A DNA stretch of 32,050 nucleotides, from the NCBI GenBank assembly GCA_018303125.1, contig JAGVYS010000051.1, positions 1 through 32,050 on the forward strand, given 5' to 3'. A program made the translations under genes and the position numbers. The notes under the pieces were generated by a model. That model saw nothing but the letters and a program-made list of their open reading frames with translations. It had not been told where the DNA came from and did not search any database. Origin of the DNA: Candidatus Woesearchaeota archaeon. Lineage in GTDB: Archaea; Nanobdellota; Nanobdellia; Woesearchaeales; WJIZ01. Shown in pieces: positions 2,883 through 7,921 of this stretch (the first letter of the stretch is position 1; each line of letters begins with the position of its first letter).

Positions 2883-2890
2883 TTATATAT
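2883..2890 (-). promoter_or_regulatory. TATA box for tRNA-Arg
   Basis: TTATATAT centred 28 bp upstream of the first tRNA base. It overlaps the stop codon of the upstream DUF4416 gene, so the tRNA can be transcribed independently. Confidence 0.55.
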
Positions 2891-3338
2891 ACCTTTTGAA
2901 GAAATCAACATTCTTCCTGTAATCTGCAAAAGTGTGCTTAAAAGAAAGAACTTCACCATCATGAAACTCAAGAACCTTATGGGCATAAACCCCATCGCCA
3001 AGATACTCCTTGAATGGCATCTTTTTGAGAGAAGCAACTATAACGCCCCCTTTAGATATAATGCCGGGGTCAATATTAACGGTCCTTTTGCCATTAGAAG
3101 AAAGGATATCTTCTATCTTGCCTGTATTTAGCCTTGCCTCAGCAAGTGTAGCTATAGGCAAAGAATAAATCACGAACCTTTTTTTCAGGTTTGCACCGAA
3201 TTCAGGTGCATAATATTCTGTGAAATTGAAATCAAACTCATCAGACATGTCTTGGGCTTTTCCAAAATAAGATGAAAGCAATTTAATGCTTTCTGAAAAA
3301 ACAGAAGCATCAGAATACATAATGGCGCAGAAGAACAT
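2883..3338 (-). CDS. DUF4416 family protein
   Basis: A 151-residue protein matching the DUF4416 family by overall pattern: an N-terminal FCAIMYSD strand, TEYYAPEFGANLKKRF at about residues 40-55, the segment ATLAEARLNTGKIE, VNIDPG near residue 87, and a closing block with VYAHKVLEF...HTFADYR. The family is widespread in bacteria and some archaea and has no established biochemical role that I know of. The length is a little shorter than bacterial members. The gene follows the helicase fragment with one base between stop and start, so the two are probably co-transcribed. An alternative start is Met7 (MYSDAS). Confidence 0.82.
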   Translation of the reverse strand: MFFCAIMYSDASVFSESIKLLSSYFGKAQDMSDEFDFNFTEYYAPEFGANLKKRFVIYSLPIATLAEARLNTGKIEDILSSNGKRTVNIDPGIISKGGVIVASLKKMPFKEYLGDGVYAHKVLEFHDGEVLSFKHTFADYRKNVDFFKRYI

Positions 3339-3339
3339 T

Positions 3340-4863
3340 TTACTTGTAATCCGCCAGGCTTGCCTGCCTCTTCTCTTCGATTACAGAACCATCAACCTGC
3401 TTCTTTATGTCTTCTGCAACAGCCCTTCCGACGATTAAGGAAAGCCTTGAAAGCTCTGCTGTCCTAACCTCGCCAACGTCCTTTATGCCGCTATTGAAAA
3501 GCCTTCTTGCCCTTGCCCTTCCTATATTGCGGAGCCTGATCAATGGTATCAGCTCTTCTTTAACGCCATATTTCAGCCTTAGCCTTAACTTTTTCAAGGC
3601 AGGAAGAAGATGCATCATTTTCATTATCCTTGCTATTTCTTCCATGCAGTACAATATCCAATCTGCAATTTCAACTTTAGCCCTTGTTTCCCCTGGCCTT
3701 ATGCCAAATTCCTCAAGCAAGTTCTCTTCACCCTTCTCCTCAATCCACTCATGAAGCAGCATGGCTGTTTTTATCGAATCCTGGAACTTGTCATATTCTG
3801 CCTCATAGATGGAAGGCTCCTTATCAAGAAGGGAATCGCCATATTTGACAAGCATTTCCTGTATGATGTCAAATTCTTTCGACCTTACCTTCAACAATGG
3901 CCTCATCTCAAGGGCAGATGAGACAACATGCAGCAATGCAAAGCTGTGCACTTCTTTTGGCGCTCTCAAAAGCATCTCACAAAGGTAATTGGCAGTCAAT
4001 GGGTCAATATACAGCTCAGATACCCTCTTGCCGAGAATAGTTGCGCTATAAGCTTCCTTACCGAGCTCAGAAGCAGGCCTGAAATCGCCCTTATAGGAAG
4101 ACTCAAGGAGCTTCCAGCCGATAAGCTGCTCAAGGGCTTTTCTAAGGGAAGAGTTCAGGGCGGTTGTGTTTGAGTACTGGTGCGCCCAAAATGTCTTCAT
4201 GAAAAAATCAAGTATGCTCTTTTCAGAGGAAATGAAGCCAGAAGCTATAAGTGACAAGACATATGTCCTTAGCACTGGCTCAGCAGCAAGCTTGGAATAA
4301 ATAGGCTCTGGCTCTCCGTTAATATAGAGTTCTTCCACTTCCGACCTGTTCTCTTCTGATGAGCATACTATTATGGACTCTCCTTTAGAATCATATCGTG
4401 GCCTTCCTGCTCTTCCCGACATCTGCAGGTATTCAATTACAGGAATGTACTGCAAGCCATGCAATCCAAATCTTTTGAGGTCCCGAATTATAACTCTAAA
4501 AGCAGGCATATCAAGCCCTGCTGCCATTGTTGTTGTCGCAGCAACTATCTTTATGTTGCCATTCTTGAAATTGTCCTCGACTAGCCCTCTTTGCCCTGAT
4601 GTTAAGCCTGCATGATGGAACGCTACCTTTTTCTCAAGGCAGCCTGCAAGCCTTTTGCACTGCTTTGTTGGTGGCGATATGTCGCTAGTGGCCTTTCCTG
4701 CCATGCCTGTCAAATCCCTTAGCTTTGTCTTCTTTGCGATTTCCTCTGCTATCTTCTCAGCTGACCTTTTTGTATTTGCGAATACAATTGCCTGCTTGCC
4801 TATTGAAATAGTGTCAAGCGCTAAATTAAGCGCAGGGTCAGAATAAGGGGTATTTATCTTCAT
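3340..4863 (-). CDS. Hel308/Ski2-like helicase, C-terminal half only
   Basis: A 507-residue superfamily 2 helicase that starts directly at the second RecA domain. Visible motifs are IV (QAIVFANTKRSAEKI, residues 24-38), V (IVAATTTMAAGLDMP, 106-120) and VI (YLQMSGRAGRPRYD, 145-158). A winged-helix and ratchet-like region follows. The end carries a helix-hairpin-helix (LRNIGRARARRLFNSGI) as in Hel308. The first RecA domain with Walker A and the DExH box is absent, so it cannot hydrolyse ATP by itself. The frame is closed by a stop 8 codons upstream, and a TATA box lies 26-27 bp before the ATG, so the short form appears to be the real gene rather than a missed start. It may pair with a separately encoded N-terminal half, act as a DNA-binding adaptor, or be a decaying remnant. 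Confidence 0.85.
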   Translation of the reverse strand: MKINTPYSDPALNLALDTISIGKQAIVFANTKRSAEKIAEEIAKKTKLRDLTGMAGKATSDISPPTKQCKRLAGCLEKKVAFHHAGLTSGQRGLVEDNFKNGNIKIVAATTTMAAGLDMPAFRVIIRDLKRFGLHGLQYIPVIEYLQMSGRAGRPRYDSKGESIIVCSSEENRSEVEELYINGEPEPIYSKLAAEPVLRTYVLSLIASGFISSEKSILDFFMKTFWAHQYSNTTALNSSLRKALEQLIGWKLLESSYKGDFRPASELGKEAYSATILGKRVSELYIDPLTANYLCEMLLRAPKEVHSFALLHVVSSALEMRPLLKVRSKEFDIIQEMLVKYGDSLLDKEPSIYEAEYDKFQDSIKTAMLLHEWIEEKGEENLLEEFGIRPGETRAKVEIADWILYCMEEIARIMKMMHLLPALKKLRLRLKYGVKEELIPLIRLRNIGRARARRLFNSGIKDVGEVRTAELSRLSLIVGRAVAEDIKKQVDGSVIEEKRQASLADYK

Positions 4864-4886: not shown

Positions 4887-4894
4887 TTTAAAAT
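4887..4894 (-). promoter_or_regulatory. TATA box for the half-helicase gene
   Basis: TTTAAAAT on the plus strand, centred about 27 bp upstream of the start at 4863 and abutting the end of the preceding gene. It supports independent transcription from this start. Confidence 0.5.
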
Positions 4895-4895
4895 T

Positions 4896-6824
4896 TTACC
4901 GCAGAATAGCTAAGCTTATCTCTGGCTTCCTCATGATGTAAATTTCCCATTCCATTATATCTGAGGACTCTCCGTCAGAAACAGTAACAGATATTTTTTT
5001 CTTTCCTGATGAATCATACCTGGCAGTTATTTGTGAACCTGCTTCTGTTTTCTTGAATAAGGAGGTTTTCCATATATAAGTGAGCTTATCATTGTCTGGA
5101 TCATATGCTTCCACGTAAAATTGTATATCCTCATTAACATTGAATGTTTCAGAGTCAATTAGGCTGCTCCCTAATATGGCAACAGGCCTATTTACATTCA
5201 TGACTTTTATCCTGGCTGTGGAGTTGGCGCTTGATTTCCCATCCGAGGCTGAAATGGCTATCTCAACTTGTTTCTCAGATTCTGTACCTAAGACAGTATC
5301 AAATCCAGGTGTCCAAAATAAAGAGTTACCTTTGAAAAAGCTTCCTTGTGGCTTGGGATTTGCAGAATACGTCAATTTGCCTTCCCTGTCAGATGCCTTT
5401 ATTGGTATCTCAAGCATCTCACCTTCATTTACTGAATAGCTGCCTAAATTGCTTATCTCAGGCAAGCTGTTTGAAGATATGATTGTAACTTGCACCATCT
5501 TCTTGTCTGACAGGAATCCATCAGATGCGGATACAGTAACATAAAAATTACCGGGGCTCAAAGCCCTTTGCCCATTTGATGTTATTGGGCCATCAAAGTA
5601 GTAAGATAGGGTATCATTGTCAGGGTCAGTTGCCGAGATGTTGAAGTAAACAGCCTCTCCTTCTGAAACTGTCACAGGAGGTATTGTCAATATCTTTGGC
5701 TGCCTGTTGGTGTTCATTACCTTGATATTGACATTCTCAGTAAGTAGCGATTGATTAGATGATGCATTTATCTGGACAGCAAAATCTCTTCCTAGTAGGT
5801 GATAGAACCATGCTATTTCATCAATAATGTTAATTCTCTCAACAACAGAATAATCTGGCTTCCACCTTATTGTCCCGTTGGAATAGTTTGCACCTGAAGG
5901 AAGATTACCCACTGCTATATTTACAGGGTCGCCATCAGGGTCTACATAATCAAGCACTACTTTAATTTCATCTCCTTCCTGCACAGTATACTGATTTTTC
6001 GACTGTGCTAATGGCGGCCGGTCTACATTCTCTACATTTATCTGGAAACTCTTCGATGCCTTGAACTTGGAATCATCCCATATAGATATCGTAACATCAT
6101 ATTTTCCTGCGCTCTCATACCCTGTCTCCCATCTTGTTAGATTGGAGAATGGCGCGGATATTTCATGCTTCAATCCGTATTTTGTGAAATCAGGAAGCCT
6201 AAGCTCTAGGATATTGCCTTCCTTGACCGTAAGATTGTTGAAACCATCAAGCAGTTTCTTCCTGTCAAAGTCCTGCACGGTTACATTCCATGCTTTTGAT
6301 GCATTAAGCACTCCGTCTGATGCTTCTATTCTTATTGCATGCGTTCCCTGGCTGTAGAAATCAGGATTATATGTGAAATAACTTCCAGTAGCTCTTTCAG
6401 CAGAATCAACAAGCCACCTTAGTTTAACATCATCCTTGTTCTTATCAGTTGCATAAGCATTGAAGAAAATAGACTCTCCCTCTATAATGCTCAAGCTGCT
6501 TTCAGTTGGTGCTTTAACTATAATCTCTGGCAGCTCTTCCTTCTTCTGTATAACAAGGGTTATATTCTTCTCGCTTGTGAGCTTTCCGTCAGAAACAACA
6601 ACTTTAGTATAATACGTTCCTGCATCCCCGTATTTTGTCTGCCATGTTCCATCAGATGACAAAGGTGGCTGAAAATAATAAGAAAGCTTGTCAGCATCAA
6701 GGTCCCTTGCTGATGGCTTCAGGTTCAAAAGGTCAGTTTCATTATACTGAAGCGTGGCTGACAAAGCAGAACCCATTGAGGACAGGAAGAGAATGGTGAA
6801 TAAAACTGCAGTAATCTTTCCCAT
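4896..6824 (-). CDS. Secreted protein with cadherin/PKD-like repeats
   Basis: A 642-residue exported protein. The chosen start, at 6822-6824, gives a clean signal peptide (MGKITAVLFTILFLSSMGSA) and has a purine-rich site GAGGGGA eight bases upstream. A start ten codons earlier at 6854 (MMFSFEG) overlaps the upstream stop as ATGA but puts polar residues before the signal. The mature part is a chain of about six Ig-fold domains of the cadherin/PKD-like type, with recurring DxDxDxL(T/S)Y calcium-type motifs, SDG turns and linkers such as NVNRP and NVDRPP. There are many N-x-S/T sites. It probably sits on the cell surface. The first domain closely resembles one in the lipoprotein encoded just upstream (both have ETDL, WQTKYGD and LTS), so the two genes arose by duplication and may work together. 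No sorting anchor is seen at the C-terminus. Confidence 0.8.
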   Translation of the reverse strand: MGKITAVLFTILFLSSMGSALSATLQYNETDLLNLKPSARDLDADKLSYYFQPPLSSDGTWQTKYGDAGTYYTKVVVSDGKLTSEKNITLVIQKKEELPEIIVKAPTESSLSIIEGESIFFNAYATDKNKDDVKLRWLVDSAERATGSYFTYNPDFYSQGTHAIRIEASDGVLNASKAWNVTVQDFDRKKLLDGFNNLTVKEGNILELRLPDFTKYGLKHEISAPFSNLTRWETGYESAGKYDVTISIWDDSKFKASKSFQINVENVDRPPLAQSKNQYTVQEGDEIKVVLDYVDPDGDPVNIAVGNLPSGANYSNGTIRWKPDYSVVERINIIDEIAWFYHLLGRDFAVQINASSNQSLLTENVNIKVMNTNRQPKILTIPPVTVSEGEAVYFNISATDPDNDTLSYYFDGPITSNGQRALSPGNFYVTVSASDGFLSDKKMVQVTIISSNSLPEISNLGSYSVNEGEMLEIPIKASDREGKLTYSANPKPQGSFFKGNSLFWTPGFDTVLGTESEKQVEIAISASDGKSSANSTARIKVMNVNRPVAILGSSLIDSETFNVNEDIQFYVEAYDPDNDKLTYIWKTSLFKKTEAGSQITARYDSSGKKKISVTVSDGESSDIMEWEIYIMRKPEISLAILR

Positions 6825-6832
6825 GCACTGAC

Positions 6833-6839
6833 TCCCCTC
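6833..6839 (-). promoter_or_regulatory. Ribosome-binding site deciding the start at 6824
   Basis: GAGGGGA on the minus strand, 8 nt before the ATG at 6822-6824. It favours this internal start over the one at 6854. Confidence 0.5.
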
Positions 6840-6850
6840 AAAAGAGAACA

Positions 6851-7921
6851 TCACTTGACCTGTACTATGTCATCTATTACAGGCGGCCTGTTGACGTTTA
6901 TGACAGTTACCTTGATAACTTGGGTATCTGCCATCTCCCCATCTGAAGCAGTAACATTAATCGAATATATTCCTGCATCATCATAGGATGTCTCCCATAT
7001 TCCATCATCCCCGATAGGGTCAGATATTATATAGGATATTTTATCCCCGTCTGTGTCTGATGCATCAGGCTTCAATGTGACTGTCTCTGTTTCCTTGACT
7101 GTTATGTCCCTCATTACCTTCAGCACAGGTGACCTGTCCACATTGGTTATGGTAAGCGACCAAAGCTTGGAAATGCCAGTTATGCCGTCTGACACATCAA
7201 GCTTCACTGTATGCGAGCCTGCACTGCTGTAATCGGCATCAAAGTCAAATAATTTGGATGATGAAATCTGCTTTCCGTCAAGTTTCCATGAGTAGCTGAG
7301 GGTATCATTATTAAGGTCGTATGCCTCAGCCCTGAATTCAAGCTTGCTGTTCTCCATGATAGTTAGTGCAGTTGAATTTGGATGGGCACTGCTCAGGATT
7401 GGTGCTTCCTCCTTCTTGTTCACAATAAGCAATGCGTCCCTTGTTGATGTTAGCTCACCATCAGAAGTTGTTATGGTTAAGGTATACTCACCATTGTCTC
7501 CATACTTTGTCTGCCACTGCCCGGATGAGTTGAGCGGAAGGCTGAAGGTGTGCTTAAGTTCATCACTGTCTGGGTCTTTTGCCACAGGCTTGATGTTGAC
7601 GAGGTCTGTCTCATCAACTATTATTGCAATTGCCTTTGAAGCAGTATCCGGTACTGACACATTCACAGCTGGTGCAGTTACATTAACTGCCATGCTTGCG
7701 TTTGCCTTAACAGAAACATTCATGCTCACATTGGCTACTACTTTAGGAACTGAACCAGAATCATTGCTTGCGTTTATTTCAGTGCCATTTCCGTTTGATT
7801 CGCCTACTTTTATCTTGTCAATAGGAATAAAAGTGACATCCAAATCCTGACTTTCTTGCGTTTGACAACCGCTAATCAGGTATATAGCAAAAACCAACAA
7901 TACGACGAGGAATCTAACCAT
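6851..7921 (-). CDS. Lipoprotein with cadherin/PKD-like repeats
   Basis: A 356-residue exported protein. The N-terminus MVRFLVVLLVFAIYLISGC is a signal sequence ending in a lipobox (LISGC, Cys19), so it is probably lipid-anchored to the outer face of the membrane. Residues 40-100 are a low-complexity linker rich in Asn, Val, Ser and Ala with many N-x-S/T sites (for example NVSMNVS), likely glycosylated. Three Ig-fold domains of the cadherin/PKD-like type follow, marked by DPDSDEL, SDGELTS, DLNNDTLSYSW, DTDGDKISY and the closing NVNRPP. The stop codon overlaps the possible upstream start of the following gene as ATGA. A TATA box at 7975-7985 and a GGGGTG site at 7930-7935 give this transcript a leader of about 33 nt, unlike most genes here. 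Confidence 0.8.
   Translation of the reverse strand: MVRFLVVLLVFAIYLISGCQTQESQDLDVTFIPIDKIKVGESNGNGTEINASNDSGSVPKVVANVSMNVSVKANASMAVNVTAPAVNVSVPDTASKAIAIIVDETDLVNIKPVAKDPDSDELKHTFSLPLNSSGQWQTKYGDNGEYTLTITTSDGELTSTRDALLIVNKKEEAPILSSAHPNSTALTIMENSKLEFRAEAYDLNNDTLSYSWKLDGKQISSSKLFDFDADYSSAGSHTVKLDVSDGITGISKLWSLTITNVDRSPVLKVMRDITVKETETVTLKPDASDTDGDKISYIISDPIGDDGIWETSYDDAGIYSINVTASDGEMADTQVIKVTVINVNRPPVIDDIVQVK

Follow-up and report, generated by a model that had tools for sequence, protein, structure and literature searches.

Superfamily 2 (SF2) helicases bind ATP between two RecA lobes, which normally reside on one chain. The DNA-repair helicase Hel308/Hjm of archaea, as known from solved structures (PDB 2P6R, 2ZJ2 and 2VA8), is likewise a single polypeptide, and in Pyrococcus Hjm it ends in a PCNA-interacting (PIP) box that is required for binding PCNA (PMC2636818). 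Here we describe a gene that encodes the C-terminal half of Hel308 as a protein of its own and very probably represents the large subunit of a two-subunit helicase. It lies in a stretch of 32,050 nucleotides, referred to as the window in the following, from a Candidatus Woesearchaeota archaeon of the order Woesearchaeales (assembly GCA_018303125.1, contig JAGVYS010000051.1). The encoded protein resembles the solved enzymes in domain order, motifs, winged helix, ratchet and helix-hairpin-helix (HhH) domain, and the Pyrococcus enzyme in its C-terminus. However, the known enzyme is one polypeptide, whereas in this order Hel308 is distributed over two genes cut at the linker between the lobes.

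The nearest precedent is the helicase Lhr, which is split in two Nanoarchaeota (NEQ003-409 and Nst 172-239; PMC3655853). In this case, too, an SF2 helicase is encoded by two genes in a DPANN-type archaeon, but it belongs to another helicase family and the cut sites differ between both genomes, whereas Hel308 is cut at one site throughout the order. Other split genes in DPANN archaea code for reverse gyrase, tRNA synthetases and Dph1/2 (PMC6349945) and share with the present case that informational proteins are divided by gene fission and presumed to assemble in trans. Hel308 is not mentioned among them in the literature searched, and no report of a split Hel308 was found in the open-access literature, subscription papers and bioRxiv being outside this search. 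An initial annotation, made from the letters of the window alone, had invoked gene splitting in DPANN genomes as a precedent, and both reports bear this out.

Results

A free-standing C-terminal half of Hel308

The open reading frame at positions 3340-4863 is located on the minus strand, which the initial annotation had left out, and encodes a complete protein of 507 amino acids (aa). Pfam assigns the domains Helicase_C (aa 20-155), HTH_61 (161-253), Helicase_dom4_arc (309-433) and HHH_5 (441-489), and the NCBIfam Hel308 model NF002654 (739 positions) is matched from position 223 to 713 with 435 bits, which is far beyond chance. Hel308 features present are thus motifs IV-VI, the winged helix, domain 4 (ratchet) and, with a score below the cut-off, the HhH domain. 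In motif VI, residues Q147, G150, R151, G153, R154 and P155 are invariant across 62 sequences, and motif V reads TPTLAAG in most orthologues. The 507-aa protein has neither RecA1 nor its Walker A and DExH motifs. The initial annotation had described precisely this, a C-terminal half with motifs IV-VI and HhH end intact and with Walker A and DExH missing. An AlphaFold model of the C-half alone reaches a mean predicted local distance difference test score of 89.6, and its best match among solved structures is Hel308 (2p6r, E-value 2e-33).

What the protein lacks is the single-polypeptide character of the family. Its 435 bits compare with a curated NF002654 cut-off of 887, which no genome of the order reaches; this cut-off is a weak test, because intact copies elsewhere in the class score below it too.

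The last 22 aa contain a PIP-box-like pattern in 82 of 110 locus sequences, which are mostly split C-halves and include some duplicated records. Judged from this pattern, the tail of the C-half is a possible PCNA contact.

The missing half is a separate gene with a fixed cut point

In 56 of 60 relatives we found a separate RecA1 gene of about 220-250 aa (typically ~221 aa), covering model positions 1 to ~221, and in 52 of the 60 the C-half (model positions ~220-715), whose open frame nearly always spans about 500-590 aa. The N-half ends about 15-30 aa past the conserved WRPV, and all N-halves aligned retain Walker A (PTASGKT), DExH and the SAT motif (SATIGN). Alignment to the Hjm structure 2ZJ2 places the N-half at residues 18-214 and the C-half at 229-716. 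Compared with intact relatives, the two halves tile the full Hel308 with a loss of only a few linker residues, and the frames of both are closed by stops on either side. They usually reside on different contigs or tens to hundreds of kb apart; in the single-contig genomes G016 and G174 the distances are ~37 kb and ~142 kb, respectively. Among relatives of the same family, Yip1 and ftsY adjoin the N-half at one end and a rimK-like gene at the other.

We considered a split intein at the cut and rejected it: the C-half begins with Hel308 sequence, the N-half ends soon after WRPV and there is no extra domain. Elsewhere in the C-half, at motif V (model position ~340), an insert extends the frame to about 1000-1075 aa in G013:C5, G032:C2, G044:C1, G171:C9, G262:C41 and G270:C2. 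Part of this insert (L151:2099-2600) shows a weak match, scoring under the cut-off, to the intein splicing domain of Pfam, and the C-halves of some lineages probably carry inteins, as far as such similarity can tell. In one genome, the C-half is fused in frame to a C-terminal Methyltransf_30 domain (PF05430; L115:2474-4756, G045:C56).

The split is order-wide and fits a single origin

No full-length Hel308 was detected among 242 genomes of the order that are at least 85% complete, the best match having an E-value of 3.7e-146. Other orders of the class that possess Hel308 have one frame of 687-755 aa (1e-182 to 1e-232). As read from the match table, 204 of the 242 genomes give two or more matches, 33 give one and five give none, a few of the second matches being a paralogue near 1e-57. 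Two matches at E ≤ 1e-60 are present in 76 of 85 genomes of the order. The source genome has a second member of the family, a Ski2/Hel308-like helicase with an intact chain of 633 aa (G000:C14:722-2623, L004), which is unsplit and shows conservation across many of the order's genomes.

Named loci give the same picture: nearly all of 80 records are designated Candidatus Woesearchaeota or Nanoarchaeota, and 75 are without RecA1. The five full-length cases comprise three Aenigmatarchaeota as well as L140 and L146, which are labelled Woesearchaeota. L140 was rejected as an intact Woesearchaeota copy, as it is identical to genome G091, which is placed in another order of the class. The truncation noticed in the window is found in orthologues throughout the order, and the situation that would have spoken against a split gene, namely a full-length Hel308 elsewhere and an unconserved fragment, is absent on both counts.

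On a tree of 53 C-region sequences, the split form maps to one change as compared to 16.1 for shuffled labels. Closed and tiling parts are both retained across a clade whose sister lineages hold the intact gene, and the split apparently goes back to one origin, as suggested by the tree. Another order of the class contains a different break: in G095:C4 (L167, L168), a break at ~385 leaves Hel308 as two frames, which lie some 25 kb from each other on opposite strands. This pattern is as from a single inversion and may reflect an independent break or a misassembly.

The C-half is under strong purifying selection, as the ratio of nonsynonymous to synonymous substitution rates (dN/dS) amounts to 0.05-0.095 in measurable related pairs. 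N-half pairs yielded no ratio, their synonymous sites being saturated.

Gene, promoter and neighbourhood

The initial annotation had further proposed that the frame is closed upstream and preceded by a TATA box about 27 bp before the ATG. Indeed, the C-half frame is closed, because a TAA occurs in frame 9 codons 5' of the start codon, and the TATA-like element occupies the predicted distance (Table 1). Among 87 C-half orthologues, 55 have a matching box within -45 to -18, whereas 200 shuffles gave a mean of 12.8 and a maximum of 25, and the box positions peak sharply at -30 to -26.

Table 1. Features of the C-half gene and its surroundings (window coordinates)
Feature	Position	Strand	Basis
Hel308 C-half gene, putative large subunit (RecA2, winged helix, ratchet, HhH)	3340..4863	-	ORF, Pfam, NCBIfam, AlphaFold
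RecA2 domain (Helicase_C), motifs IV-VI	4399..4806	-	PF00271, aa 20-155, 50.9 bits
Motif V, AATTTMAAGLDMPA	4501..4542	-	Alignments
Motif VI, QMSGRAGRPRY, invariant arginines	4393..4425	-	Alignment of 62 sequences
Winged-helix domain (HTH_61)	4105..4383	-	PF20470, 39.7 bits
Ratchet domain (Helicase_dom4_arc)	3565..3939	-	PF21280, 106.3 bits
Helix-hairpin-helix domain	3397..3543	-	PF14520, 23.3 bits (below curated cut-off of 27)
PIP-box-like C-terminus QASLADY (Q-x-x-L-x-x-Y)	3346..3366	-	Pattern match
In-frame stop TAA upstream of start	4888..4890	-	Sequence and frame reading
TATA-like promoter element TTTAAA, -29..-24 from ATG	4887..4892	-	Position kept among 87 orthologues
DUF4416 gene directly downstream, 1 bp gap; neighbour, no helicase part	2883..3338	-	Pfam PF14385

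The preceding gene is unrelated, as had been claimed: according to Pfam it encodes a PKD/Ig-domain protein. Two neighbouring, slightly overlapping genes with PKD/Ig-like repeats are present here (4896-6854 and 6851-7921), whose products are probably surface proteins. The downstream DUF4416 gene is probably co-transcribed with the C-half; of 109 related loci, 9 have it close to the C-half, among them most loci of the same family. At the contig start, a DDE transposase gene lies beside a gene for a Fic-domain protein (91-1071 and 1086-1943).

Discussion

Our data are best explained by an ancient gene fission, which very likely generated a two-subunit Hel308 with the gene described here encoding the large subunit. 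The initial suggestion that the gene might be one half of a split helicase is strongly supported by the separate RecA1 gene in relatives and the same truncation across the order. According to this explanation, hel308 would have been cut in the short linker between the RecA lobes in the ancestor of the Woesearchaeota order, and the pieces would have become separate genes, each with its own start codon and promoter. Walker A, DExH and SAT, the motifs for nucleotide binding, reside on the small subunit (RecA1), and the large subunit comprises motifs IV-VI together with the winged helix, the ratchet that drags the DNA, the HhH domain and the PIP-box-like tail. We infer that the halves bind each other non-covalently, the ATP site forming at their interface, and that the pair has ATPase activity and unwinds DNA in the 3'-5' direction at stalled forks, possibly while bound to PCNA. 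As all helicase motifs are kept on either side of the cut, a working two-chain motor would be expected rather than two new functions.

Several observations weigh against this explanation. The RecA1 partner was not found in the source genome assembly (G000; 94.7% complete, 54 contigs) when searched with Hel308 and DEAD models at E ≤ 10 and with the N-half alignment, only other helicases being matched. In addition, some good assemblies have one half only, such as G078 (C-half, 20 contigs) and G141 and G219 (N-half). The tree branch that parts split from full forms is weakly supported (59). Finally, the C-half of the window deviates at 10 of 126 columns with a conservation of 90% or more, which is the second highest number among 62 sequences. 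This copy evolves faster than most, which could be a lineage effect or relaxed constraint; FtsY of the source genome is likewise more divergent.

The absence of the partner from the source assembly is likely due to an assembly gap, because contig C31 ends in a repeat after ftsY and because the rimK-like gene, the neighbour of the N-half on the other side in relatives, is missing from this assembly too. The ftsY gene is located at C31:146-1249, with the contig end on its downstream side, where relatives have Yip1 and the N-half. The 145 terminal bases past ftsY are 99% identical to the start of C43. This dispersed repeat (C31:1-145, C43:1-140 and C35:15327-15422), which breaks the assembly beside ftsY, is probably the end of a mobile element. 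The idea that a separate RecA1 domain ends near the point where the C-half starts holds for the relatives; in the source genome's own assembly a contig ends at the place expected for it. Fairly complete assemblies with one half comprise G078 and G226 (C-half only) as well as G012, G018, G141, G167, G219 and G250 (N-half only). Gaps are the likely explanation for such cases, and real loss or a change of partner may also occur.

One alternative is that the C-half binds DNA or has a regulatory role by itself, without requiring RecA1, as the initial annotation had also proposed with its regulatory fragment. The DNA-binding domains, i.e. winged helix, ratchet and HhH, do sit in the C-half, and the partner is lacking in a few assemblies such as G078 and in that of the source genome. 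However, the ATP-dependent motifs V and VI, dispensable for a protein that only binds DNA, are conserved, and a complementary RecA1 gene with the same cut and all catalytic motifs is kept in 56 of the 60 relatives. Since conservation extends to the ATPase half, whose catalytic motifs are intact, a regulatory fragment is much less likely than a helicase half, and we regard a lone C-half as improbable.

It is still less probable that the RecA1 subunit serves other partners, or that a different helicase, for instance the 633-aa Ski2-like protein (C14), lends its RecA1 to the C-half. Such an exchange would account for the N-halves without detectable C-half in G012, G018, G141 and G219, and the paralogue is widespread in the order. 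Yet the genomes with one half are mostly incomplete assemblies, the paralogue is complete with its own RecA2, and we see no evidence of exchange.

A truncated pseudogene or relic, for which the missing first 220 residues and the slightly faster evolution of the window copy could be cited, is extremely unlikely: the 507-aa frame is intact, start and TATA positions are conserved, and the low dN/dS and order-wide presence led us to reject decay for the family, in line with the initial view. Although most of the genomes are metagenome assemblies broken into numerous contigs, the possibility that an assembly or frameshift artefact cuts a full-length gene has virtually no probability left and was rejected: independent assemblies share the identical cut point, among them the single-contig genomes G016 and G174 with their halves far apart, and stops close the frames on both sides.

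Returning to the two-subunit Hel308, we tentatively propose a further step, which we consider rather doubtful at present: Hel308 might here be an obligate two-component motor, in which RecA1 is produced from its own promoter and joins the DNA-handling subunit only when needed, this assembly being the on-switch of the helicase at stalled forks.

Annotation pipelines are likely to label both halves as fragments. The split Hel308 provides a clean evolutionary marker of the order and possible two-part helicase reagents, and it extends gene fission in DPANN archaea beyond the most reduced genomes. The two lobes of this helicase were apparently separated once and have been kept apart through a whole archaeal order, which thereby offers a natural experiment on the importance of the covalent linker to a motor.
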